Source: Sulfurimonas sp. (GTDB taxonomy: Bacteria > Campylobacterota > Campylobacteria > Campylobacterales > Sulfurimonadaceae). Taken from it: a stretch of 64,000 bases of DNA. The stretch spans positions 1,736,001 to 1,800,000 of the forward strand of contig NZ_CP093396.1 in NCBI RefSeq assembly GCF_029027405.1, written 5' to 3'. Below the pieces are notes generated by a model, which was not told where the DNA came from, ran no database searches, and saw only the letters and a program-made list of their open reading frames with translations. The translations under genes and the position numbers were made by a program. This document shows positions 8,321 to 54,770 of the stretch, one piece after another (position 1 is the first letter of the stretch; each line of letters begins with the position of its first letter).

Positions 8321-8890
8321 TTAAACCTTTACTCTATCTTTTAATGCTCTAGTTAGGGATAATATATCCACATTTTCCAAACTTACTCCAGTTGGAACAC
8401 CTTGTGCAATTCTTGAAAAATTTATATTAAAAGAACTAAGTTTTTCTTCTATATATAAAATAACTGCATCATTTGAAATAGATGGGGTAAGAGCAAATAA
8501 AACTTCACTAATTCCATTTTCCACCATTTTAACAAGATGTGAAACAGTTAACTCTTCTAAAGAATCAAGCACAAAATATTTACCATCAAAAAGTCCATTT
8601 TCTTCCAATAAAAGTACATCTTTAGCATTTTCTATAATACACAATAAGGTATTATCTCGTCTTTCATCACTACAAATAGAACAAAGTTCATCTTCACTCA
8701 TTCCACCGCATACTCTGCATTTTCTCAAACTCCCAAGAGCGTCTTCTATTGCTTGAGATATTTTCATACCAACAAAAGTATCATTAATTGCCATATGATA
8801 TGCTAGTCTTGTTGCAGACTTTTTTCCTATTGTTGGAAGTTCTTGTAGTGCATCTACCAAGCGGTTGAATTTATCTAATGAGCCTCTCAC
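8321..8890 (-). CDS. recR: Recombination protein RecR
   Basis: The 189-residue protein is slightly shorter than usual for RecR. The helix-hairpin-helix LPTIGKKSATRLAYH, a four-cysteine zinc finger (CRVCGG...CSIC) and a Toprim domain beginning LLCIIENAKDVLLLE appear in the family order. RecR works with RecO, and in many bacteria RecF, to load RecA at single-strand gaps. It overlaps the mltA stop by 4 bases. Confidence 0.96.
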   Translation of the reverse strand: MRGSLDKFNRLVDALQELPTIGKKSATRLAYHMAINDTFVGMKISQAIEDALGSLRKCRVCGGMSEDELCSICSDERRDNTLLCIIENAKDVLLLEENGLFDGKYFVLDSLEELTVSHLVKMVENGISEVLFALTPSISNDAVILYIEEKLSSFNINFSRIAQGVPTGVSLENVDILSLTRALKDRVKV

Positions 8891-39706: not shown

Positions 39707-41521
39707 GAGACTGTGAAACAATCAAGCCTCAAAGTTCATAATAATTCGATTTTTAGAAATTATATCGTTTAAATTGTACCATAAAAATATTTGATATTAT
39801 TTTAGCCATATAGAGCCTAAAACTAGCGATATAAAAAGCTATTTCTTCTCTTATATCACTTAAGTCTCCATCTTTGACAGCTATCATCAGTTTTCTAAAC
39901 AGAGCTATCCCTATCAGGTTTAGTAATCGTTTGAAATTATAGGTAAACATGATGAGTGCGTTTTCACCAGCTACTTTCTTTTTGCTTCTCACTAAGAAGT
40001 GATCCCAGCCTAAGCTTCTTTTGATTGTTCCAAATGGGTGTTCAACTATTGAACTTACATAAATCTATTTAGTAGATTTATTGCACTGACGCTTGTTGAG
40101 CTAGTCTTTTTTTGATGATAGCTTTTGATTCATCTGTTTGCATATTCGCATTATAGTTGTCAAGTAGCTCTTGATGTTCCCATCTTTGAGTCTGTTTATT
40201 CTTAGTCTTTTCACCTAAACATTTATCTTTGATTGGGCAGGCATTACAGTCGGTTTGAGAGCTTCTATACAAGTACATAGTTCTAGCATATGATTGATTC
40301 AATGATGATGTTCTTGATATTAGTTTATTGTTAGGGCATACATAAGCGTCTTTGTTCTTATCGTAGATAAACATATCTTTAGTGAACTTACCTTTGTTTT
40401 TTAGTTCTTGACCTGTTCTTACTAATGGTACTACTGTATTTATATTATCGTCAATACATTTTTTAATCTCAACTGCTGAAGAGTAGCCTTTATCTGCTGT
40501 TATTATCAAGTTTGGATTATTTATAACTTTTCTAGTTTGTAGAGCCATTTTATGGAGTTCTTGTTTATCGCTACCTGATGATGTTACATCTGTAGCTACT
40601 ATAAACTTGTACTTATCGTCTACACATATCTGAGAGTTGTAAGCCATAAGATTATGGGATGGTTTAGTCATTACGCTTGCATCTGGGTCAGTACGATTAT
40701 ATTGAGTTTTATTAAGACTTTTAAGAAGCGCTAAGTCAGCTTTAGACTTGAGTTTTTTTTAAGAGTTTATCTAAATTTTTAGGTAGATTTTTAGAGAGTT
40801 TATTTGTGACTGTCTCTTCATCGCTATATTCTAAAGTAGTTAGATACTCTTCTATAGACGATTCTACTTGTTTGATGGACTCATCTACGGTTCTTTTCAT
40901 TATAAGAGTATTTTTAGAAGCATTAGCTCTTAGAAATGCACCATCAAGTCCAACTATCTCTCCACCGATAAGTCCTATTCCTTTACACAAAAGTATAAAT
41001 TCCTTAAACACTTGTTTAAGTGCTTTTGGATTGTCCTTTCTAAAATCCGCTATTGTTTTATAAGTTGGCTTTAGTCCTGCTGTCAACCACATCAGTTCTA
41101 TATTTCTGCTATTTTCCTTTTCAAGATTGCGAGAACTTCGTATCTTATTGAGATAGCCGTAGATATATATTTTTAATAGTAACTTTGGTGCATAAGATTT
41201 TTGACCAGAGAGACTCTTAGACGTATCGCTAAAGCCTAGTCTTTTTAAATCTAATAATGAGACATAATCATCAATAGCTCTTACAGGGTTATTCTCATCT
41301 ACATACTCATCAAGACTTGGAGGAAATAATAGTTGTTGATTACGGTTTAAACCCTCTTTGTATTTCTCACTCATAGACACCTCTTTAAATCCCTATATTA
41401 CGAACTATTATTAGTTATATTATACAATTATAAGGGTTTAAATATGGTTAATGTTAAGGTATTTGTGTTAGAATTTTTGTAATTTATGAGACTGTTTGAG
41501 GTTTAGTTATTTCACAGTCTC
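39707..41521 (-). mobile_element. IS1182-family element with broken transposase
   Basis: The 1815-bp element is bounded by GAGACTGTGAAA at 39707 and its complement at 41510-41521; subterminal AAxCCTCAAA is also shared. Both ends adjoin attC sequence: CCAACGA on the left, and ATAGTAGCC of the toxin-antitoxin attC on the right. No target duplication is seen between these two flanks, which fits a rearrangement after insertion. The transposase frame is broken at least twice. Confidence 0.8.
39753..41380 (-). pseudogene. IS1182-family transposase, frameshifted
   Basis: Three consecutive pieces make one transposase. 41380-40742 is the N-terminal part (LLFPPSLDEYVDENNPVRAIDDYV, RDNP and VGLDGAFLRANASKN). 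After a shift at a run of eight A (40753-40760), 40740-40078 is the core (TDPDASVMTKPSHNLMAYNSQ, ITADKGYSSAVEI). After a further break, 40057-39753 is the end (IVEHPFGTIKRSLGWDHFL). The second break coincides with about 25 extra bases containing the palindrome ATAAATCTA-TTTAG-TAGATTTAT (40059-40081). Slippage at the A run could in principle restore the first frame; the second break looks like damage. Confidence 0.82.
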
Positions 41522-41577
41522 ATAGTAGCCAATAAGTAGCCTAGCGGCGACTTATTGGCTATATTCAGCCGTTATCA
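41522..41577 (+). other. attC half (R' side) of the toxin-antitoxin cassette
   Basis: ATAGTAGCCAATAAG and its complementary arm CTTATTGGCTAT frame CCTAGCGG, followed by TTCAGCC and the R' core GTTATCA (41571-41577). The same stem sequence is in the attC sites at 50068 and 53650. Here it is oriented on the plus strand, opposite to the rest of the array. Its R'' half lies at 42257-42271 on the other side of the genes. Confidence 0.8.
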
Positions 41578-41598
41578 CCAAAAGTAATTTTCAATTAA

Positions 41599-41627
41599 TA
41601 CCAAATTAAATCTAAATTTGGTACAAT
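41599..41627 (+). promoter_or_regulatory. Operator/promoter of the toxin-antitoxin pair
   Basis: A 9-bp inverted repeat, TACCAAATT (41599-41607) and AATTTGGTA (41615-41623), overlaps a -10-like TACAAT at 41622-41627. It lies 28 bases before the antitoxin ATG, as expected for autoregulation by a YefM-type antitoxin. Confidence 0.5.
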
Positions 41628-41654
41628 ATAGTATCTTTAAAGAAGGTGGAAATT

Positions 41655-41927
41655 ATGTATTTAAGTCAAGATATAAAACCAATTAGCTATTTAAAAGCAA
41701 AAACTGCAAATGTTATCAATGAGGTAAATGAAAATCAAAGAACTATTATAATTACACAAAATGGTGAAGCAAAAGCAGTAGTACAAGATATAAAAAGTTA
41801 TGAAAATACACAAAACTCTTTAAACCTGTTAAAACTCATAGTTCAAGGTGAAAATGATATAGAAAACAGTAGAACTATAGAACAAAAAGATATGTTTGAT
41901 AATTTAGAGCAAAAATTATTTGGATAA
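41655..41927 (+). CDS. Phd/YefM-family antitoxin
   Basis: The ATG at 41655 (90 residues, MYLSQDIKPIS) has AAGGTGG upstream and is preferred over the GTG at 41646. The Phd/YefM DNA-binding half is clear: IKPISYLKAKTANVINEVN, then RTIIITQNGEAKAVVQD. The C-terminal half should wrap the toxin. It is paired with the RelE-like toxin 6 bases downstream. The pair is inverted relative to other cassettes. Confidence 0.9.
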   Translation: MYLSQDIKPISYLKAKTANVINEVNENQRTIIITQNGEAKAVVQDIKSYENTQNSLNLLKLIVQGENDIENSRTIEQKDMFDNLEQKLFG

Positions 41928-41933
41928 CTTAAA

Positions 41934-42272
41934 ATGAAAAAATTCAAAGTTATCTGGAGTAAAAATGCTGAACTTGATTTAGAATTAATTATTGAATACA
42001 TTAAGATTGACAGCATAAATATAGCAAAAAAAATATTTAATGAAATAAAAAAAGAATGTAATAATTTATACACTTTACCAGAACGAAAAAGAATAGTACC
42101 AGAGTTTCAACAAATTGGTATTTTAAAATATAGAGAAATTATATATAAAAGATGGAGAATAATTTACAAAATTGATAATGAAAAAGTTTATGTTTTATTA
42201 GTAATAGACACAAGTAGAAATTTAGAGGATATACTATTTCAAAGGTTAATAAATAGTGATAACAAAACATAG
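41934..42272 (+). CDS. RelE/ParE-family toxin
   Basis: The 112-residue toxin has the family pattern VIWSKNAELDLELIIEYI at the start and YREIIYKRWRIIYKIDNEKVYVLLVIDTSRN near the end, with several basic residues that could serve for mRNA cleavage or gyrase binding. Its TAG stop lies at the junction of attC R''-side sequence and the IS end. This close fit of stop codon to attC is shared with other cassettes here. Confidence 0.9.
   Translation: MKKFKVIWSKNAELDLELIIEYIKIDSINIAKKIFNEIKKECNNLYTLPERKRIVPEFQQIGILKYREIIYKRWRIIYKIDNEKVYVLLVIDTSRNLEDILFQRLINSDNKT
42257..42271 (+). other. attC half (R'' side) of the toxin-antitoxin cassette
   Basis: TGATAAC is the exact complement of the cassette's R' core GTTATCA at 41571. 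AAAACATA follows, then an IS1182-like end begins at 42272. Joining this half to 41522 through the shared ATA gives a normal attC, which shows that an IS of the same type lies on both sides at the same attC position. Confidence 0.75.
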
Positions 42273-42334
42273 AGACTGTGAAATAACTAAACCTCAAACA
42301 GTCTCATAAATTACAAAAATTCTAACACAAATAC
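42272..42334 (+). mobile_element. Terminal fragment of a second IS1182-like element
   Basis: These 63 bases are identical to the complement of 41459-41521, the end of the full element that lies upstream of its transposase gene. Similarity stops abruptly after AAATAC. The rest of this copy has been lost. Confidence 0.85.
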
Positions 42335-45214: not shown

Positions 45215-45373
45215 AGCTAACGGGGGCGCGGGTGAGTAACTGCCGTTGGTAAAACTTTAGTTTTTCCAATGGTTGCTTGCTCCTCCCGCTTGTTATCTGG
45301 CGCTGTGCGACAGATGACCAGTGGGTGTTCAACCCGCGCCCCCGTTATCCGGTCACGCAGTGAGCGGATAACG
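45215..45373 (-). repeat. Gene-less cassette, repeat copy 1
   Basis: Cassette proper 45221-45371 (151 bp), inside a 156-base stretch (45218-45373) identical to three other copies. Its attC runs from R'' GGATAAC near 45350 to R' GTTAGCT near 45215 (minus strand), with 16-bp arms ACGGGGGCGCGGGT-like and a nested TTGG/CCAA hairpin. It has no credible ORF. It follows the attC of the IS-split gene. Confidence 0.88.
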
Positions 45374-45434
45374 TTTTAGGAGAGCAATAGTTTTCCCGCT
45401 AGGGTAAACTATTGGCTCCTGCGTTTTGTTAGCT
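45366..45434 (-). other. attC site of the IS-split cassette
   Basis: R' GTTATCC (plus 45366-45372) and R'' AGCTAAC (plus 45428-45434) bracket a 69-base palindrome with arms CAATAGTTT / AAACTATTG and a GCTAGGG loop region. R'' is complementary to the R' GTTAGCT at 47442 that opens this cassette. The TAG stop of the gene touches R''. Confidence 0.85.
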
Positions 45435-45867
45435 ATAGCACTAACATACGACTATTTTTTGTTCTTAATGATTTGCGACTACTACAATACGAAATGCTTA
45501 GAAAACCAAATTTATATCCTATATTTCCAGTATATCTATCACCCAAAGGTAAAGAACCAACCTTTTTGATAACTAAACGATTTACTTTAATATATTTTCC
45601 ATTTTCAAAATCAATAGTTGAGTCATTACTGACAGTTACTAAAAGTATATTACAAAAAACAGCTACTCCATCTGAAGCACTCCATGTTTGAATAATATGA
45701 ACTCCACTAAATGAACAACCTATATATTGATAAGAAAGTATCTCATCTTCTTCTTTCGCTGTGACAACTGGATGAGTTTTGCTTGATTTTTTTGATGTTA
45801 TATCAGAAAAATATCTGTTACTTGGAATGTCCCCTATAAACTAGACAATTACTAATCCAGTAAAAAC

Positions 45868-46680
45868 CTAATTTTCTGAAGACCCCAAATTATACCTTTT
45901 TTCAAACTCATTTGGTGAAATATAATCCAAATAACTATGTCTTCTTTTCGAGTTGTAGAACATTTCTATATATTCAAAGATTTTAGATGCTGCAACTTCT
46001 CTAGTTAAAAATACCTGCTTTCTAACAAGCTCTTTTTTTAATGTTTTGAAGAAGCTTTCCGCAACTGCATTATCATAACAGTTTCCTCTTCTACTCATGC
46101 TAAGAGTAATATTATGCTTCTTGGCAAACTTTTTATAATCATAAGAGCTATATTGACTTCCCTGATCGGAGTGAAGAATAACCTTATCATCCTTATGCAG
46201 TCTTGTAACTGCCATTTTAAGTGCATCAATAATTAGTGGTGTTGTTTGTCTATGTCCTGTCGCCCAGCCAATAATTTTTCTATTAAATAAATCTATAACA
46301 GTTGCCAAGAATATCCATCCTTCTTTTGTTCTAATGTAAGTTATATCACTAACCCAAGTATCATTAGGTTTATTTACTATAAAACACTGCTGTAAATGAT
46401 TAGGATGTGCCTTGTGAACGGGACCAGCTTTAGAGTATGGCTTACGTTTATAAGTGCCTACACCATAGAGCTTGGCCTCGCTCATCAGTCTAGCTACTCT
46501 CTTTTTATTTACATGAACTCCAAGTTCTTTTAAATCTTTATGAATATTTCTATGACCATATACCCCATTGGATTCTTTATAGGCTTCTTTTATCTGAATA
46601 AGTAATTCTTGATTTTCCAACTCTCTATTAGAAATCGGTTGATTTAGCCACTGGTAATATCCACTTCGGTGCACTTGCAT
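45868..46680 (-). CDS. IS3-family transposase OrfB
   Basis: The 270-residue catalytic part has VSDITYIRTKEGW, VILHSDQGSQYSS and DNAVAESFFKTLKKELV, which give the DDE triad, and the C-terminal RRHSYLDYISPNEFE. The frame is open upstream of the listed ATG, and expression is expected as a fusion with OrfA by -1 frameshifting at AAAAAAG (46773-46779). Confidence 0.93.
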   Translation of the reverse strand: MQVHRSGYYQWLNQPISNRELENQELLIQIKEAYKESNGVYGHRNIHKDLKELGVHVNKKRVARLMSEAKLYGVGTYKRKPYSKAGPVHKAHPNHLQQCFIVNKPNDTWVSDITYIRTKEGWIFLATVIDLFNRKIIGWATGHRQTTPLIIDALKMAVTRLHKDDKVILHSDQGSQYSSYDYKKFAKKHNITLSMSRRGNCYDNAVAESFFKTLKKELVRKQVFLTREVAASKIFEYIEMFYNSKRRHSYLDYISPNEFEKRYNLGSSEN

Positions 46681-46739
46681 AACTTTACAAAGTCTATGAA
46701 TGGCATAGACTTCGCTATAAGCTTTAATAAAAGTATATT

Positions 46740-47024
46740 TTAGTTTGTGTGGCTTGCAAAGTACACCGCGGCCTTTTTTAGGATGTCCCTCTCTTCTGTA
46801 ACTCTCTTTAGCTCTTTTTGGAGTTTTTTTATCTCCGCTTGGGACTCATCCATAATCTTATATTTTTTTACTGCTGCTGGAGACTCTAATCTTTTTATCC
46901 AACCACTTAACGATGTTGGATGTATACCTAATCTATTTGCCGTATCTGTTATGCTGTAACCATTTTTAGTTACTTGTTTTACTGCCTCTATTCTAAACTC
47001 TTCACTGTATCTTTTTCTTGCCAT
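46740..47024 (-). CDS. IS3-family transposase OrfA
   Basis: The 94-residue protein has an HTH (SEEFRIEAVKQVTKNGYSITDTANRLGIHPTSLSGWIK) and a leucine-zipper-like tail (EIKKLQKELKRVTEERDILKKA). The A6G slippery sequence lies in the RDILKKA codons, the usual place for IS3 programmed frameshifting. Confidence 0.93.
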   Translation of the reverse strand: MARKRYSEEFRIEAVKQVTKNGYSITDTANRLGIHPTSLSGWIKRLESPAAVKKYKIMDESQAEIKKLQKELKRVTEERDILKKAAVYFASHTN

Positions 47025-47441
47025 TTTTCAACCCTATAATTTTCATAATGTTATATCATTATACTATCTAAATTATTGGATTAATTAGTGTCTAGTTTAT
47101 AGGGGACATTCCAACTATTATTTGATTTAGAAATATTGATTGATACAACTTGATCACCTGTATCGCTTGTCCAACCGATTAGGTCTTCAAGAATTTTTGG
47201 GTTAATATATTCTTCATTTGTAAATGAATACTTATAATCACTAAAATCTCTAATTAAAGTAGAATTTGGGGTTAATGACATAAAGTTAAATCCAATGATT
47301 CCATGAACTTCATCTCTAAAAAATGCAGCTGTGCTTAGCAGTAGAACAACTACCGGCTCTGGACTTGGTTCTATATATAACCAAATTATACAAGCTAAAA
47401 AAGCTAGAATACTAATTATTTTATACAATTTTTTCCTTGAT

Positions 47442-47600
47442 AGCTAACGGGGGCGCGGGTGAGTAACTGCCGTTGGTAAAACTTTAGTTTTTCCAATGGT
47501 TGCTTGCTCCTCCCGCTTGTTATCTGGCGCTGTGCGACAGATGACCAGTGGGTGTTCAACCCGCGCCCCCGTTATCCGGTCACGCAGTGAGCGGATAACG
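47442..47600 (-). repeat. Gene-less cassette, repeat copy 2
   Basis: Cassette proper 47448-47598 (151 bp), identical to copies 1, 3 and 4 through 47445-47600. R' GTTAGCT at plus 47442-47448 opens the IS-split gene cassette. It follows the attC of the PD-(D/E)XK gene. Confidence 0.88.
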
Positions 47601-47662
47601 TTTATCGTGAGCAATAGTTTTCCCGCTAGGGTAAACTATTGGTCTCCTCGTTTTTGTTAGAT
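47593..47662 (-). other. attC site of the PD-(D/E)XK cassette
   Basis: R' GTTATCC (plus 47593-47599) and R'' ATCTAAC (plus 47656-47662) bracket arms CAATAGTTT / AAACTATTG almost identical to those of the attC at 45366. R'' differs by one base from the complement of the opening R' GTTAAAT. The TAA stop of the gene is part of R''. Confidence 0.85.
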
Positions 47663-48889
47663 GTTCGCATGTTGATTGCTTCTAAAGTCCATTACATCTG
47701 AAATTGTTTCTATAAAACTTTTTAAATTATGATGTGCTTCATCATCTCTAACCAAGGGACAACCATTTTCCCGTGACAATGTAAATCCAATTTTACACGG
47801 TTCTGTATGTGACTCAATACGTAATACATCTTTCTTTTCTTCAATTATATTTTCTTGAATTTTTGTTCTAAACCAATACTGTTCAACTTCATCTTCTGAT
47901 AATTCTATTTTATCCTGTGATACTCTATTACAATCATTGATACAAACATCTGATAATTCTATTTGTAATTGATTGATAATCGGCTCTAGAATCATTGTTT
48001 GTATTTCTCTTGGATACTCTCTATCTGTAACATTCCATATATTTGTTAATATATTAATTGTTCCATTTTTACCTACTTTTTTACAGCATATTAGGATTAA
48101 ATATGAAAATGATTTTATAATTGGTTCTTGTTTTGTACCAGCTTCATCTGCTCTAAAAATTAAGTATAAAAAATTTATAAGTCCATTTGATAATGTTTCT
48201 ATTAATAACTCATTATCAACAAACATACACCATGACCTCTGGTTGATATTTCCATTGTTTATTTCTGAGGTAGTCAATGCAAGTAAGGATTGTGGTGATA
48301 TTTTAAGTTCACTACGATTTTGCCATAATTTTATTAGTGTTGGCTTATCAGATAAAGTTGAATAGTTCCAAAACTTAGTTCTAATAACTTCTAGTTGCCC
48401 TTGTAAGCTAAGAGCTTTTGAATATAGTCTTATTATTGATAATGGATTTTTAGAACATAAATTTTCTAATTCAGTACGTTCCCAAAGTTTAACTTTTATT
48501 TTAGGATTATTTGATTGCCATTCTTTAACCCAATCTCTTGTTGGATTAGAAAAGTTTGAATTTGTTGCTATCACTATGACATCCACATCTTGTTTATTGC
48601 TTATATTAAATAATGCACTGTGCACTTCAGCTGGTTCTACTGTAGATTTTCTTCCTTTAGCTTCTATCCACCATTTTTGTTTTGTTAATTCACCATCAGG
48701 TGAAGATACATAAAATGATAATTCTAAATCTCTTCCTCCATCTGAAGCACCATTACCTTGGCCTCCTATACGCCATTCAATATCTTTAGCTCCCATTTCA
48801 TCAAAAAGCCAGTACAATAATTCTTCTAATTCTTTACCTTTTATTATATCCCAAGGAATTTCTGTTGGTATAATTAATTCTGAATCCAA
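47657..48889 (-). CDS. PD-(D/E)XK nuclease-like protein (cassette gene)
   Basis: The 410-residue protein has an N-terminal restriction-endonuclease-like (Mrr-type) domain: DGGRDLELSFYV near residue 50 supplies the Asp, and KQKWWIEAKGRKS near residue 72 supplies the E-x-K. VDVIVIATNSNFSNPTRDWVKEW near 103 continues the fold. The C-terminal 240 residues are helical with no recognised motif. A nucleic-acid-cleaving defence function is plausible but unproven. It is the only gene of its cassette; the stop lies in attC R''. Confidence 0.75.
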   Translation of the reverse strand: MDSELIIPTEIPWDIIKGKELEELLYWLFDEMGAKDIEWRIGGQGNGASDGGRDLELSFYVSSPDGELTKQKWWIEAKGRKSTVEPAEVHSALFNISNKQDVDVIVIATNSNFSNPTRDWVKEWQSNNPKIKVKLWERTELENLCSKNPLSIIRLYSKALSLQGQLEVIRTKFWNYSTLSDKPTLIKLWQNRSELKISPQSLLALTTSEINNGNINQRSWCMFVDNELLIETLSNGLINFLYLIFRADEAGTKQEPIIKSFSYLILICCKKVGKNGTINILTNIWNVTDREYPREIQTMILEPIINQLQIELSDVCINDCNRVSQDKIELSEDEVEQYWFRTKIQENIIEEKKDVLRIESHTEPCKIGFTLSRENGCPLVRDDEAHHNLKSFIETISDVMDFRSNQHANI

Positions 48890-48916
48890 TACTTCTCCTA
48901 TAAATTTTAATAAACT

Positions 48917-49075
48917 ATTTAACGGGGGCGCGGGTGAGTAACTGCCGTTGGTAAAACTTTAGTTTTTCCAATGGTTGCTTGCTCCTCCCGCTTGTTATCT
49001 GGCGCTGTGCGACAGATGACCAGTGGGTGTTCAACCCGCGCCCCCGTTATCCGGTCACGCAGTGAGCGGATAACG
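48917..49075 (-). repeat. Gene-less cassette, repeat copy 3
   Basis: Cassette proper 48923-49073 (151 bp), identical to the other copies over 48920-49075. Its R' here is GTTAAAT (plus 48917-48923), which opens the PD-(D/E)XK cassette. It directly follows the other gene-less cassette (49074-49256), so two gene-less cassettes stand in tandem. Confidence 0.88.
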
Positions 49076-49256
49076 GCGAAGCTGAGCTCCATTAATGAGT
49101 ATATCAGAAAATTCGCTTGCGATTTTCTGGGATACACTTTGATGTGTGACTCCTGCCATTTGTTGTATGTAGCGTAGCGAAATACGACAAATGGTTGGGG
49201 GCACGTTTAGGGCTCAGCTTCGCCGTTGTACGTTTCCGCTCCGCGGGAACGTACAA
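49068..49256 (-). repeat. Second type of gene-less cassette (183 bp)
   Basis: The cassette proper is 49074-49256. Its attC has R' GTTATCC (plus 49068-49074) and R'' GTACAAC (plus 49225-49231), 16-bp perfect arms AACGGCGAAGCTGAGC with their complement at 49212-49227, and nested hairpins (GAAAAT-TCGC..., CCATTTGT...ACAAATGG). The opening R' GTTGTAC at 49251 and R'' form the palindrome GTTGTACGTT...AACGTACAAC. Short ORFs crossing it do not look like genes. Confidence 0.82.
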
Positions 49257-49387
49257 CGGTCGAGTACAAAAATATGTTACCTGTTTTTGTAGTCTTTTAA
49301 GTTCTACAATGGTATCTAAATCTTTGAAGTTTTCCAATCTAAAAATTGGCAGAGGTAACATATTTTTCTTGCTACGATTTGTTATAT
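49251..49387 (-). other. attC site of the lipoprotein cassette
   Basis: R' GTTGTAC (plus 49251-49257) and R'' ATATAAC (plus 49381-49387) bracket a 137-base palindrome with arms AAAAATATGTTACCT and complement near 49352-49366. R'' is the exact complement of GTTATAT at 49917, the opening core of this cassette. Confidence 0.85.
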
Positions 49388-49389
49388 CT

Positions 49390-49842
49390 TTAATTTTTTA
49401 TGAATTTATTTAAGGTTGAAAGAGCCGCTCTATCTCCATTTAATGCAAATCCAGTTTCTATTCCATTTTTATCAAATATTGTTAAGAGTTTAGAATTTGC
49501 CCATAAATCTCTTTTAACAATTCTTTCTTCAATTTTTGAAATTTCATTTTTACTTAATTTAAACATGATATTGTATTCAAATCCCCTCACATCCCATTGA
49601 GCAAAATAAACACCTTGGTCTGTTATTGTAAAAATACCCCATGCTTTTAAATCATCATTTTGATACATTGTTGTAAATTCTTTAAACAATATCTCAGATG
49701 AACCATCTTTTACTGTTTCAATAAAAATTGGCTTAAATTGTTTCGTGCTTAATAAACCTTGTTGTGTTTGCATAGGTCCTAATGCACTACACCCTGATAG
49801 TAATGTGATTAAAACTAAAAAACTAAAATAAAATTTCTTCAT
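49390..49842 (-). CDS. Lipoprotein of unknown function (cassette gene)
   Basis: The start at 49842 gives a lipoprotein signal MKKFYFSFLVLITLLSGC (Cys 18) and 150 residues; a start at 49872 adds ten residues. The mature part has beta-rich segments such as LKAWGIFTITDQGVYFAQWDVRG and ends RAALSTLNKFIKN. No family is recognised. It lies alone between two cassette boundaries. Confidence 0.72.
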   Translation of the reverse strand: MKKFYFSFLVLITLLSGCSALGPMQTQQGLLSTKQFKPIFIETVKDGSSEILFKEFTTMYQNDDLKAWGIFTITDQGVYFAQWDVRGFEYNIMFKLSKNEISKIEERIVKRDLWANSKLLTIFDKNGIETGFALNGDRAALSTLNKFIKN

Positions 49843-49916
49843 TAAGAAATCTCCAAAAATAAATTTACCCATTTTTAATAGGCATATTCAAACTTCCAAA
49901 TAATGTGGTTTCTTGG

Positions 49917-50075
49917 ATATAACGGGGGCGCGGGTGAGTAACTGCCGTTGGTAAAACTTTAGTTTTTCCAATGGTTGCTTGCTCCTCCCGCTTGTTATCT
50001 GGCGCTGTGCGACAGATGACCAGTGGGTGTTCAACCCGCGCCCCCGTTATCCGGTCACGCAGTGAGCGGATAACG
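49917..50075 (-). repeat. Gene-less cassette, repeat copy 4
   Basis: Cassette proper 49923-50073 (151 bp), identical to the other copies over 49920-50075. R' GTTATAT (plus 49917-49923) opens the lipoprotein cassette. It follows the attC of the DUF262 gene. Confidence 0.88.
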
Positions 50076-50135
50076 GTCGAAGATAGCCGATAAATTGCCG
50101 CTAGGTAATTTATTGGATACTCTGTTTTGTTATGC
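50068..50135 (-). other. attC site of the DUF262 cassette
   Basis: R' GTTATCC (plus 50068-50074) and R'' GCATAAC (plus 50129-50135) bracket the conserved stem CCAATAAATTACC / GGCAATTTATCGG with GCTAGG at the tip. R'' is the exact complement of the opening R' GTTATGC at 52069. Confidence 0.87.
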
Positions 50136-50142
50136 TTTTAAC

Positions 50143-52038
50143 TTAAAGTAGCTTAGAAAAATCTTCTTCTTGAAAAGTAATATTCCATCTATCTGACATA
50201 AATTGTAGTAATTTTTCTCCTCTTGAATATATATCGTCTATACTCCAAGATATATTTTGACTTATCTCAATTGTATTGTAACTTGCAGTTGAAAAAACTT
50301 CCACTTTTACATCAAAACATTTATTTCCAATACTTGAGTTGTATGTTTTGGAGAGTAAAACTAGATTACCAAGAGAATGCAATATTCTTTTTTTACTTTT
50401 ATTGTCTAAAGTATTAATTTCGTTCCAACATTCCCTAACAGTATTTTGAGGATAAATATGCTCTACGGAATCTTTATTTATTTCTTCCCATTGAAGTTTC
50501 CTCTCACCTTGTGCATTAGATTGTAAAAATAATTCATACTCATAAAGTAGATATTGTATACCATTCCACGAGTACCAACCTTTTTTATTTTCATCATCAA
50601 AGTTATCATTGATAATATCTATAAATTTTTTTGATTTAAATAGCTTATTTTTATGATTATCATAAATTTTATCTTCAAGTTTTGTTCTGATTCTATAAAT
50701 ATACTTCTTTTTATGATATTCATAAGCCAATTCAAAAAAATCTTTTATAGTTGTATTACTACCTTTCATCGTCCTAAATTTTATAAACATATAATTTTCA
50801 ATTAGTCTTAAAATTCTTACAATCTCATCGTCATCATTGATGTTTTCTTTATCAATCATAATCGCCATTACTAAAGGTTTAAAAGTGTCAAATCCTAATC
50901 TATTTATTTTAGAAAGCCATACTTTTATTTCTTCGCTATATTTTGTGTTAATAGGATTAAGCATATTGTAATATGCAACAATAGCATTTTGAATATTAAA
51001 CACATAATCTTTAATATCAGTATAATCAATAAAAAAATCTTTAAGTCGTGATTCATCCATCACTTCTTGAATTTGAGAAAAATTTTCTCTATCTCTAAAA
51101 GTTACTTTTTGGATTGTAAAATGTTCTTTTAATAAAAAATCTCTTTCAGGATTAGCTACAGCTCTGTCATATTTTCCAAAATACATTCTCCAATGATCTT
51201 TTAAAAAAACATCATCTTCAATTTTTGATGATGAGTCTTTTCCAATATACTCATAAATTGTTTTCCATGCTTCATTAATATTAAAACGTAATTGGGAAAC
51301 TTCTTCTTTATCATTATTTAAGATAGTTGTTAGATACATTAGTCTATTTTTCAAAAGTTCCAATGTTGTCAGTTGTTTACCCCTATTATTCATAGTTTCA
51401 AAAATAATTGAAACATCTAATTCATCATCTTTATCAATTTCATAAAAATTAAACTTGAGTTGCTTCGTTATTTTTCTCACCAAAGTTTCAAGAGGATTTT
51501 TTTCTAGTTTATCAATTTTTTTATGAAAAAACTTTTTTGCATTATGAAGATTTTTAGTATACAAAGTATCAGTTTGTGTAGCAAAAGATTCTGTACTCTC
51601 TAATTCTAAAATTTTTGTTCTAAAAAATATATCACTAGGGTTGTCTTTTTCGTAGCCAAATACAACGCGAACAGTTTGTGCATCTTTTCCTACTCTTTTA
51701 AATAAATATTTATTGGTAAGTTCAGATTTTAATGCTCCTGTATTTTCATCACCTATCCAATCAGAATTGTTAAATTTATCAAGAATAATTTTTAATAAGA
51801 TCGTTATTGTTGTCAATCTTTGTTGACCATCTACTACATGATAATAATCATTTTCTTTTTTATGTTCAACTGTCAGCATTCCTGTATAGTGAACTCTCTT
51901 GTCATCTAAATTTTGTAAATCTCTCCAAAAATCCTCTAGTTGCTCATTCTCCCAAGAATAACCTCTTTGATAGTCGGGTATCTTGAAAATTTTATCATTA
52001 AATATCTCAGATAATGTTTCTAGTCCACTATTTGCCAA
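50143..52038 (-). CDS. DUF262/DUF1524 (GmrSD-like) protein (cassette gene)
   Basis: I place the start at the TTG at 52038, which has AAGGA 8 bases upstream and gives 631 residues; the frame is open to 52155, but the extra part is attC sequence and overlaps the Doc gene. The N-terminal DUF262 domain has IFKIPDYQRGYSWENEQLEDFW and VVDGQQRLTTITILL, the latter being the nucleotide-binding DGQQR motif. The C-terminal DUF1524 has the HNH-like VEHIYPQN...LGNLVLLS pattern. Homologues include the GmrSD type IV restriction enzyme of modified phage DNA, so phage defence is likely. Confidence 0.88.
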   Translation of the reverse strand: MANSGLETLSEIFNDKIFKIPDYQRGYSWENEQLEDFWRDLQNLDDKRVHYTGMLTVEHKKENDYYHVVDGQQRLTTITILLKIILDKFNNSDWIGDENTGALKSELTNKYLFKRVGKDAQTVRVVFGYEKDNPSDIFFRTKILELESTESFATQTDTLYTKNLHNAKKFFHKKIDKLEKNPLETLVRKITKQLKFNFYEIDKDDELDVSIIFETMNNRGKQLTTLELLKNRLMYLTTILNNDKEEVSQLRFNINEAWKTIYEYIGKDSSSKIEDDVFLKDHWRMYFGKYDRAVANPERDFLLKEHFTIQKVTFRDRENFSQIQEVMDESRLKDFFIDYTDIKDYVFNIQNAIVAYYNMLNPINTKYSEEIKVWLSKINRLGFDTFKPLVMAIMIDKENINDDDEIVRILRLIENYMFIKFRTMKGSNTTIKDFFELAYEYHKKKYIYRIRTKLEDKIYDNHKNKLFKSKKFIDIINDNFDDENKKGWYSWNGIQYLLYEYELFLQSNAQGERKLQWEEINKDSVEHIYPQNTVRECWNEINTLDNKSKKRILHSLGNLVLLSKTYNSSIGNKCFDVKVEVFSTASYNTIEISQNISWSIDDIYSRGEKLLQFMSDRWNITFQEEDFSKLL

Positions 52039-52068
52039 TTGATTTTCCTTATAGTAATTTTTTCTGTA

Positions 52069-52135
52069 GCATAACGACTGTCGTGAGCGATAATTTTCCT
52101 TTAGGTAAATTATTCGTTCCTCGTTTTTGTTAGGT
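52069..52135 (-). other. attC site of the Doc cassette
   Basis: R' GTTATGC (plus 52069-52075) and R'' ACCTAAC (plus 52129-52135) bracket arms GCGATAATTT / AAATTATTCG. R'' complements the opening R' GTTAGGT at 53650. The TAA stop of doc is part of R''. Confidence 0.87.
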
Positions 52136-52573
52136 TTCTGCTGAGACAGCTTCAAATATCTCTATTTTTAATGATTCATCAAATTCATTGTCATCTACTA
52201 TGAATTTAATTATTTTTAAAAGTAAATCATCATTTATTTTGCCTTCTGCTAACCAAACTACTATATTTTCCATTTCTAAAATAAATCTTTTAGTGCAATA
52301 GTCATAACCGTTTAATTCTAAAAAATATGCACCTAAAACTAAGCTTGACCTTTTATTTCCATCAGAAAATGGATGAAATTTATTTACTGCATAAATAATA
52401 TGTTTAAGTTTTTCTTCAAATGTTGGATAATACATATCATTTTGAACATGTTCCAATGCACTATCAAGTAAGCCTATTTCTCTATTACCACTAAGTCCAC
52501 CACTATTTTCAATAATCCAATCATGTACATTTATTGCATGATTTGTATCAAAATAAAAGATTTCTAATTCCAT
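52130..52573 (-). CDS. Doc/Fic-family toxin (cassette gene)
   Basis: The 147-residue protein has the Fic core HPFSDGNKRSSLVLGAYFLELNGY near residue 67, the catalytic HPFxDGNKR, and the GGLSGNREIGLLDSALEHVQ region of death-on-curing proteins. Doc phosphorylates EF-Tu; other Fic proteins AMPylate targets. Its start overlaps the upstream gene by one base (TAATG), so the two genes form an operon within one cassette. Confidence 0.9.
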   Translation of the reverse strand: MELEIFYFDTNHAINVHDWIIENSGGLSGNREIGLLDSALEHVQNDMYYPTFEEKLKHIIYAVNKFHPFSDGNKRSSLVLGAYFLELNGYDYCTKRFILEMENIVVWLAEGKINDDLLLKIIKFIVDDNEFDESLKIEIFEAVSAET

Positions 52574-53586
52574 TATCTATCTTTTAAGCGTTTTAATACA
52601 TCTAATGTTTCAGGATCAGACAGTCTTTCTTCAAGAGATTTACTTGTTTCGCCTAAAAATTTATCAAAATCACTTTGTGGAACAGATTGAATATATCCTT
52701 CCAATTTATTATGTAAGGCATCCCTGAAACATAAATCTCGACTTGCCATTTTCACTCTAGCATCATCTATGCTTGGTTTCATATAAGGATTTGAAGCAGC
52801 ATTTTTAATTATGCTATCTAATTCACTTTGAGATAATTTTCTACCTAATTCTTCGGATTTAGTTTTCATTTCTTGTGCAAGTCCATGTTCAAAGCTTGCA
52901 ATCGCTTTTAAAACTTCTGAGTACATAGTATCTCGAACTTTTTCTTTTTCAGCGAGATTAAGAATTTTTTTATATTCACTTGCATTTTCTAGAAAAATCA
53001 TTTCATAAATCTTATTTGTGTAAATTCCATATTTATATCTATCTGACATGTCAAGATAGTGCTTTAAAGCATCTGTAAATTCTTTTCTATAACTATATTC
53101 TTGATAAGAAGCTGGTAGATAACCTTCATCCCTTTGATTAATATATTTGGTTTGCCCACCAGCTTTTTGTGCAACAGCATCTATTGCTATATCTAGAATT
53201 TTACTTCTAATAATTTTTGCTTTTTCACTTTCTGTAATTAACATAGAAATATTTAAAACAGCTCTAAAAGAGAAAACTCCAAGAATTGTTGTTTTGGTAG
53301 CGACATTCATGTCGTTACCAAAATTTTCTTTCAATTTTTTTAGTTCCTTCCCTTTAATAACCTTATATCCATTAGATGACAACTCGTCATTATTTTGTTC
53401 AATATATCTATCAATAGTTCTTTCATCAACTGATAATAAACTTGACACTTGTGTTTTAGTAAAAATTCTTTCATCTTTCCAAGTTGTCCCACCTAATGCT
53501 AAATTAAGTTCAACTTTTTCTAAAGCATATTGGTTATTTAAAATATTTTGTCTACTTATTGTTGATTCTGTTAAATCTTTTTTCAT
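52573..53586 (-). CDS. DNA-binding partner of Doc (cassette gene)
   Basis: The 337-residue protein has an HTH-like region, FTKTQVSSLLSVDERTIDRYIEQN (about residues 42-65), followed by KAKIIRSKILDIAIDAVAQ and a long helical C-terminal part. Genes of this type are often found upstream of Fic/Doc toxins and resemble RhuM-like proteins. It may act as antitoxin or transcriptional regulator; no canonical Phd antitoxin is present. ATG with GGGAAAAG upstream. Confidence 0.68.
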   Translation of the reverse strand: MKKDLTESTISRQNILNNQYALEKVELNLALGGTTWKDERIFTKTQVSSLLSVDERTIDRYIEQNNDELSSNGYKVIKGKELKKLKENFGNDMNVATKTTILGVFSFRAVLNISMLITESEKAKIIRSKILDIAIDAVAQKAGGQTKYINQRDEGYLPASYQEYSYRKEFTDALKHYLDMSDRYKYGIYTNKIYEMIFLENASEYKKILNLAEKEKVRDTMYSEVLKAIASFEHGLAQEMKTKSEELGRKLSQSELDSIIKNAASNPYMKPSIDDARVKMASRDLCFRDALHNKLEGYIQSVPQSDFDKFLGETSKSLEERLSDPETLDVLKRLKDR

Positions 53587-53649
53587 CTTTTCCCAATTTA
53601 TACATATTTATGTTAATTATAACATTTTATAAGAGTAACTAATTTTGGT

Positions 53650-53717
53650 ACCTAACGACTGAAGATAGCCAATAAATTTCCGCTAGGTAATTTATTGGCT
53701 ACTCTGTTTTGTTAGGT
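53650..53717 (-). other. attC site of the DUF4062 cassette
   Basis: This is the cleanest attC here: R' GTTAGGT and R'' ACCTAAC match the consensus cores at all positions, over 68 bases. The stem TAGCCAATAAATT with its complement frames CCTAGCGG. The DUF4062 stop codon lies 18 bases from the R'' edge, inside the site. Confidence 0.93.
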
Positions 53718-54700
53718 TTTTCATCAGTTTTTTTAATTAACTCTAAAAACAACATGGCATCACCTTTCTCAATTTCATAATCATATAAATATTTTTGTTC
53801 ATTAATAGAGCCCATCATACTGTCAATATCGTATGGATTTTTAACATAATCTGGATTTTTTCTTTTTAATGTATTAGTTATATTAATAAATGTTGCTTTG
53901 ATTTTATCAATACTATTTTCACTAAAAATTAATCTTGATAATATTTTAATCTCTTGATTATCTTTTTCATTAAAATATATATCTGATTTTTCTTCTGGAA
54001 TAATTAGATATTTTATTTTATTTTGATCTAAATCTTCTACAAATTCAATTTTTGTGATAATTGTCTCTCCAAACTTAAATCCCAATTCTCGACAAGCTTC
54101 CTTAGACAAAGGTACAGCTTTCTCTGATAATTTTATATTTACAATAGTCTCGTAGTTTTTATACTTGTTTGGAAATAATAAAAATTTTTCTAACAGATTT
54201 AAGTTGTCATTTTCATTTATTTTAAGTTTTTCAATTTCCTTTTTTGTTAAAATATCATCTAACCTATTTTTTAGTCTAATTGATAAATCTTGAGGTGTTT
54301 GAAAAAAATCTACAGTATGTTTTTCTTTTAGTAGTTGTTTAAAATTATCTAGTTTTTTATGCTGTTCAAAATCTATAGCATTTACTTTGATTTGGGCTTC
54401 GTCATCAATCAAATAAATTAAAATTTCTTTTTTTTGCTCTAAAGCTTTTTCATATTCTAATTGAGTAAATGATTTGTTCGACTCTGCTTCAAGACTGCCA
54501 AATCTTGTAGCAATTATACCAATATAAATATCTGCTCTTTCTACTTCGTTTAAACAGGTTTCAAGTGGAGTTTCTTTTCTTGCTCCAAACTTTTCCATAC
54601 CAAGAACATTAACACTATAGCTTTCCAATAGTTTCCATACTGCTTCTCTATAGTCTTTTAAATCCATATAGGTTGATGAAATAAATACATTTTTTTTCAT
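53699..54700 (-). CDS. DUF4062-domain protein (cassette gene)
   Basis: The 333-residue protein starts MKKNVFISSTYMDLKDYREAV and has ARKETPLETCLNEVERADIYIGIIATRFGS, the DUF4062 domain, a TIR-related nucleotide-binding fold found in putative immune proteins. The C-terminal two thirds (about residues 140-333) are not recognised. A role in defence signalling is possible. It is the first cassette after the candidate array promoter. Confidence 0.82.
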   Translation of the reverse strand: MKKNVFISSTYMDLKDYREAVWKLLESYSVNVLGMEKFGARKETPLETCLNEVERADIYIGIIATRFGSLEAESNKSFTQLEYEKALEQKKEILIYLIDDEAQIKVNAIDFEQHKKLDNFKQLLKEKHTVDFFQTPQDLSIRLKNRLDDILTKKEIEKLKINENDNLNLLEKFLLFPNKYKNYETIVNIKLSEKAVPLSKEACRELGFKFGETIITKIEFVEDLDQNKIKYLIIPEEKSDIYFNEKDNQEIKILSRLIFSENSIDKIKATFINITNTLKRKNPDYVKNPYDIDSMMGSINEQKYLYDYEIEKGDAMLFLELIKKTDEKPNKTE

Positions 54701-54742
54701 AATTTAAGCATTATCCTTTATTTATAATAATTTACTTTATAA

Positions 54743-54770
54743 ACCTAACTATTTATTCATTCCCATTATA
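54743..54770 (-). promoter_or_regulatory. Array start: R' core and candidate cassette promoter
   Basis: Plus ACCTAAC at 54743-54749 is GTTAGGT on the minus strand and complements the R'' of the first cassette. No attC stem lies beyond it, so it may be the attachment-site edge. A TATAAT -10 box lies at 54765-54770 on the minus strand, about 65 bases before the DUF4062 start, with no good -35. It is placed as an array promoter would be. Confidence 0.5.

Follow-up and report, generated by a model that had tools for sequence, protein, structure and literature searches.

Integron cassettes usually carry a gene, although a gene is not required, and an attC site needs an unpaired spacer and extrahelical bases in order to recombine. 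Integrases recombine the bottom strand of attC (PMC2727003, PMC8946536), and pairing of the central spacer in the attC of the Vibrio cholerae repeat (VCR) lowered recombination 27-fold (PMC2727003). Non-coding cassettes are known from the super-integrons of Vibrio, where paralogous copies number up to 45 per array and are conserved across species within a limited lineage; a selfish element or a regulator of the integron was already proposed for them (PMC1382264). Here we describe a gene-free 151-bp unit, termed F1, that recurs in a 64,000-nucleotide window of the Sulfurimonas sp. chromosome (G000:C1:1736001-1800000, within a single-contig genome of 2.83 Mb). We lean towards the explanation that F1 is a minimal gene-free cassette, a passenger of integron integrases in which selection keeps a fold of the bottom DNA strand.

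Exact string search places F1 on the minus strand at 45221-45371, 47448-47598, 48923-49073 and 49923-50073 with every base identical, in agreement with the preliminary description of this DNA. A chance origin of four identical 151-mers is impossible. Copies 1, 2 and 4 abut the attC of an upstream cassette (45370-45430, 47597-47658 and 50072-50131, respectively), and copy 3 lies directly after a unit of a second family, F2. A second array on the same chromosome (263500-278597) holds eight more full copies, five of them exact, two with one difference and one with three, for a host total of 12 over two arrays. At all 12 sites the left flank ends in CG and the right flank begins with TT, while the neighbours differ at each. 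The unit is flush with the neighbouring cassettes at these constant borders (CG/TT and G/TT on the minus strand, slashes marking the joints), and its layout is G/TTATCC-15 nt-GGATAAC-GGGGGCGCGGG...CCCGCGCCCCCG/TT. The F1 units have no conserved reading frame and vary in length out of frame, which led us to reject a conserved peptide product, and the window has no Rfam match at gathering thresholds. The conserved short peptide or RNA that the preliminary description had named as a possible refutation is thus not what was found.

Relatives were surveyed in 135 genomes of the genus by BLAST, in 228 genomes of the family with a covariance model and in a phylum sample of 397 genomes. F1 is present in 38 of the 135 genus genomes (58 of the same set have integrase matches), in 48 of the 228 family genomes (7 genera) and in 26 of the 397 phylum genomes (12 genera). 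Across three families of such units we collected 95 distinct full-length occurrences: 58 follow an attC, 37 lie directly at an attI-like core, from which integration at attI is read, and none is elsewhere. No two of the 73 F1 occurrences have the same downstream neighbour. Comparison of genomes shows movement between cassette borders and attI, and the confinement of all 95 occurrences to attC or attI argues for a mobile cassette free of open reading frames (ORFs) and not a miniature inverted-repeat transposable element (MITE). The proposal that the unit is complete and spreads without protein cargo is borne out by its flush fit at attC and at attI in many genomes; the copies outside arrays that would have marked it as a MITE were not seen (0/95), so that a MITE or transposon was rejected. 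Phage and plasmid collections gave no match to the unit, viral contigs gave no exact match, and an origin in phage or plasmid was set aside for want of a match in either collection. A search for related loci with the neighbouring Mrr-type gene found nothing.

The best-supported reading divides the unit into about 75 nt of non-coding cargo and, after it, a 76-nt attC of host type; the cargo is no neutral filler but complements both attC arms. On the minus strand the order is hairpin P0, segment 1 (GGGGGCGCGGG), TTGAA, segment 2 (CCCACTGGTCATCTG), a loop, segment 3 (CAGATAAC-AAGCGGG), AGGAGC, stem-loop P3 and segment 4 (CCCGCGCCCCC-GTT). In copy 1, P0 spans 45344-45372 (29 nt, GTTATCC-GCTCACTGCGTGACC-GGATAAC) and the remaining cargo 45295-45343. 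The inner attC, assigned from the host attC consensus, lies at 45219-45294 (R'' AACAA, L'' GGAG, L' CTCA, R' CGTT), with equivalents at 47446-47521, 48921-48996 and 49921-49996 in copies 2, 3 and 4. Folding and covariation pair segment 1 with segment 4 (stem P1, on the L'-R' arm) and segment 2 with segment 3 (stem P2, on the R''-L'' arm). Segments 3 and 4 correspond to an attC of the host type, since AACAA-N6-GGAG has the host R''-L'' signature and spacing and CTCA...CGTT forms the L'-R' side; the 5' half of the unit thus repeats the attC arms in inverted orientation, minus the terminal stem. The division into a 136-base attC plus 15 bases given in the preliminary description is one possible split, less well supported than this one.

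An alternative pairing joins segment 1 to segment 2 (GCGGG-TTGAAC-ACCCGC) and frees segments 3 and 4 for the attC, so that two mutually exclusive states are predicted. In state A (1:4 and 2:3) the bottom strand is a closed three-way junction with both attC arms held in near-perfect duplex. State B (1:2 and 3:4) consists of a small hairpin and, next to it, an open attC in which the spacer is unpaired and extrahelical bases are present.

Covariation was measured in 26 distinct F1 units over a 52-pair structure, with shuffles and slid partners as controls. Pairing holds in 92.2% of cells, and double-sided changes occupy 133 cells, compared with 43.5 +/- 5.7 after shuffling and 8-37 once the partners were slid. 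The P0 core is paired in 210/210 cells, with compensatory changes among the types GTTATCC, GTTGTCC, GTTGTCT and GTTGCCT. The inner R'' (AGATAAC, AGACAAC, AGGCAAC) co-varies with the core type and with R', and distant members have the further core types GTTATCTCGG and GTTGTACAGG. One unit (L157) carries matching changes in all four segments together. Segment 3 of the host copy L016:16990-17140 is exactly complementary to segment 2 through three changes, a pattern that self-correction templated by the hairpin would produce.

Which strand is selected can be read from the wobble pairs, as selection on the sense RNA would tolerate G.U, while selection on the bottom DNA strand would tolerate G.T there, which reads as A.C on the sense strand. 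Wobble cells and DNA minimum free energy (MFE) were compared on both strands of 54 F1, 14 F2 and 4 F3 units, with 25 ordinary attCs as reference. F1 has 182 A.C cells on the sense strand against 17 G.U, and the bottom strand has the lower MFE in every unit of the three families (54/54, 14/14 and 4/4, together 72/72), compared with 16/25 ordinary attCs. These results argue for selection on the bottom DNA strand and not on an RNA. The wobble excess is smaller in F2 (24 vs 15) and F3 (6 vs 4), which leaves F1 and the folding energies as the main support for the strand claim.

The two sister families have no obvious sequence likeness to F1, yet all three share P0, a perfect outer stem, a P2 with AACAA-N6-GGAG, and P3. 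F2 measures 184-192 nt from GTT to GTT and occurs in 25/135 genus genomes by BLAST; its window copy (49074-49256, or about 49072-49257 when counted from GTT to GTT; minus strand, 186 nt) has F1-like anatomy, and a second host copy lies at about 274777-274965 in array 2. F3 measures 177-178 nt and was found in two genomes (G013 and G023). Comparison across the units thus shows fold conservation with covariation, a preference for the bottom strand, and three families of one build.

The position of the units within arrays was assessed at attI loci picked by the attI motif alone. A P0 hairpin opens 23/85 first cassettes and 3/47 starts after ordinary attCs at the same loci (p = 0.005, a value that serves only as a guide, the genomes being related and not independent); one of the three later starts looks like chance. 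At L188, L214, L239 and L253 shortened units or remnants proximal to attI are fused to a gene. At L239, L253, L254 and L230 the first cassette carries a gene and has a unit remnant as its 5' leader, which looks as though the attC of the unit had been lost by deletion. In the host, a degenerate unit follows an attI-like sequence at L018 ~8483-8600 (G000:C1:1856500-1856600), apparently the relic of a third platform. Attention is also drawn to attI-like sites with a TATAAT box in 107/228 family genomes, up to five per genome (for example G013, G144 and G004); such sites outnumber the integrase genes found in family genomes, and it seems that integron platforms are scattered without an accompanying intI.

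The explanation that we favour, of a gene-free passenger kept for its bottom-strand fold, can be stated as a mechanism. It is probably the folded single strand of the unit that matters, and not any product. The integrase IntI, acting in trans, would move the unit, which would rest protected in state A and recombine from state B, the state open to IntI. Given the 27-fold loss on spacer pairing in the VCR attC, state A is expected to recombine poorly. Masking by state A may thus damp excision and shield the very small single-stranded product, and this proposed damping and protection would account for the persistence of the unit, its copy number and its frequent first position at attI. We infer that the fold tunes recombination. 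A bolder proposal, which we put forward tentatively and would not expect to hold in full, is that the units form a distinct class of element, a self-masking attC working as a two-state single-stranded DNA switch. It would spread through an integrase in trans, tend to settle at attI and decay by internal deletion into 5' leaders of ordinary gene cassettes, so that new cassettes would obtain attCs and leaders from it.

Several observations weigh against this explanation. For the units tried, the DNA model favours state A over state B by about 10-24 kcal/mol. The host attC model, built from 25 ordinary attCs, gives no match to the inner site in the window F1 copies. In F2, P0 co-varies and the inner R'' does not follow the cassette core. 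In L046 (G073) a gene cassette apparently uses the outer 136-nt F1 structure, without P0, as its attC; the attC of the next cassette there resembles the F2 outer stem. The attI enrichment carries the relatedness of its genomes, as given above. Finally, nothing in the host genome exceeded the family cut-off for an integron integrase, and the vicinity of array 2 keeps a 17-residue C-terminal intI fragment (L017:3891-3941), which means that movement is not current in this host unless an integrase comes from outside.

The F2 and G073 observations bring forward a rival view, in which the attC comprises the entire 136-nt outer structure, a 15-nt hairpin spacer accompanies it, and the perfect stem aids folding or cruciform extrusion with no switch. 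P0 keeps the outer R'' an exact complement of the cassette core in all units (210/210), the outer stem co-varies, the gene cassette of G073 ends at the outer R'', and the F2 core is tracked by the outer R'' only, the want of covariation in the F2 inner R'' being a point for this outer reading. But the outer stem is fully paired, with neither unpaired spacer nor extrahelical base, a condition of the kind that cost 27-fold in the VCR experiment (PMC2727003), while the inner R''-L'' spacing agrees with that of the host in all three families. By eye and by folding the inner site has R'', L'', L', R', the unpaired spacer and the extrahelical base. The host attC model scores it in F3 only (L196, L215, L234 and L235; E 0.0005-0.0024), and this match by a model of ordinary attCs supports the inner reading. 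We therefore prefer the inner to the outer attC with some assurance, and regard the outer structure without a switch as unlikely, if the most serious of the alternatives.

It is considerably less probable that the unit acts as an RNA, as a structured 5' leader behind the attI promoter serving as stabiliser, attenuator or small RNA. The enrichment of units at attI just behind a TATAAT box, the strong fold of the sense RNA (z -6.55) and the regulatory role put forward for non-coding cassettes (PMC1382264) all speak for it. The wobbles (182 A.C vs 17 G.U on the sense strand) and the better folding of the bottom strand in 72/72 units speak against it, as does the finding that none of the 12 full host copies is first at attI. 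No stem of the unit is followed by a T-run, which is also at odds with an intrinsic terminator and leaves the terminator entertained in the preliminary description unsupported. A promoter cassette of the kind known from gene-less cassettes of Vibrio and Treponema (PMC11014356, PMC6557892) has precedent, but we give it very little credence, as the unit is GC-rich within an AT-rich genome and no promoter-like site was listed within the four window copies, the latter a weak argument given that prediction is unreliable for such cassettes and that the Vibrio paper describes their promoters as not computer-predictable; the earlier suggestion of a promoter carrier thus found no support. Least credible of all is a MITE or an element like the repetitive extragenic palindromic (REP) sequences, moved by a transposase that targets attC. 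The unit is indeed short, repeated and rich in hairpins, and attCs do serve as insertion sites for insertion sequence (IS) elements: in L097 an element of IS110 type abuts the unit exactly at the outer R''. Yet the G/TT borders are exact at attC and attI alike, two sites with little in common beyond the core, and 0/95 occurrences lie elsewhere. The transposase gene of IS110 type (L097:1349-2430) stops immediately short of a unit that lacks P0, and the junction falls at the outer R'' AAC; a gene cassette borrowing the attC of the unit was considered for this locus and rejected in favour of an IS110-type insertion.

The window array itself (45370-54757, minus strand) starts at attI, with the attI-like core AATAAATAGTT at 54747-54757, a TATAAT at about 54765-54770 and no intI beside it. 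The attC model places its canonical attCs at 53654-53713 and 52073-52131 in addition to the three that precede F1 copies. Among the cassette genes are nucleases of Mrr and GmrSD type and a DUF4062 protein (47657-48889, 50143-52155 and 53699-54700), which suggests an array rich in defence genes. An IS3-family element (45819-47117) splits the cassette gene after unit copy 2. Perfect inverted repeats of 63 bp flank a toxin-antitoxin-like gene pair (41646-42272) in the region 41459-42334, which also has a plus-strand attC (41520-41570) running opposite to the array.

An open-access literature search returned no study of such Sulfurimonas cassettes and no description of this anatomy. The class of gene-free cassettes is thus already known; what is new, as far as we have seen, is the anatomy, the phylum and the evidence on the strand. 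The units offer a direct test of the question, standing since 2006, of whether such cassettes are selfish or useful. Their sequence reveals which DNA strand and which pairing selection acts on, one build recurs in three families, and P0, segments 1 and 2 and the inner attC could each be taken out on its own in an assay. If masking is true, attC activity would be set in cis by DNA folding; if remnants turn into the leaders and attCs of gene cassettes, the units would bear on how cassettes originate.

Comparison with known systems places the units among them as follows. Like REP and bacterial interspersed mosaic elements (BIMEs) and MITEs, the unit is short, gene-free, rich in hairpins and presumably moved in trans; unlike them, it is bounded by integron cores and limited to cassette positions. 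With the gene-less promoter cassettes (PMC11014356, PMC6557892) it shares the lack of an ORF and the setting in chromosomal integrons, but those act by promoters, and no promoter-like site was listed in the four window copies, by a prediction that is unreliable for such cassettes. The Vibrio non-coding cassettes, in the portion of the account used here (PMC1382264), are likewise gene-free, repeated in arrays and conserved between species. The units differ from them, as there described, in their attC-complementary cargo, bottom-strand selection and attI preference, and also in size (about 151-186 bp), in their occurrence in Campylobacterota and in forming three families of one build. The unit resembles VCR-type attCs with a large variable terminal structure in having a long attC, a bottom-strand fold and, in its inner site, the order R''-L''-L'-R'. 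In contrast to those sites, the entire cassette joins the fold of the unit, which hides both attC arms rather than presenting them.

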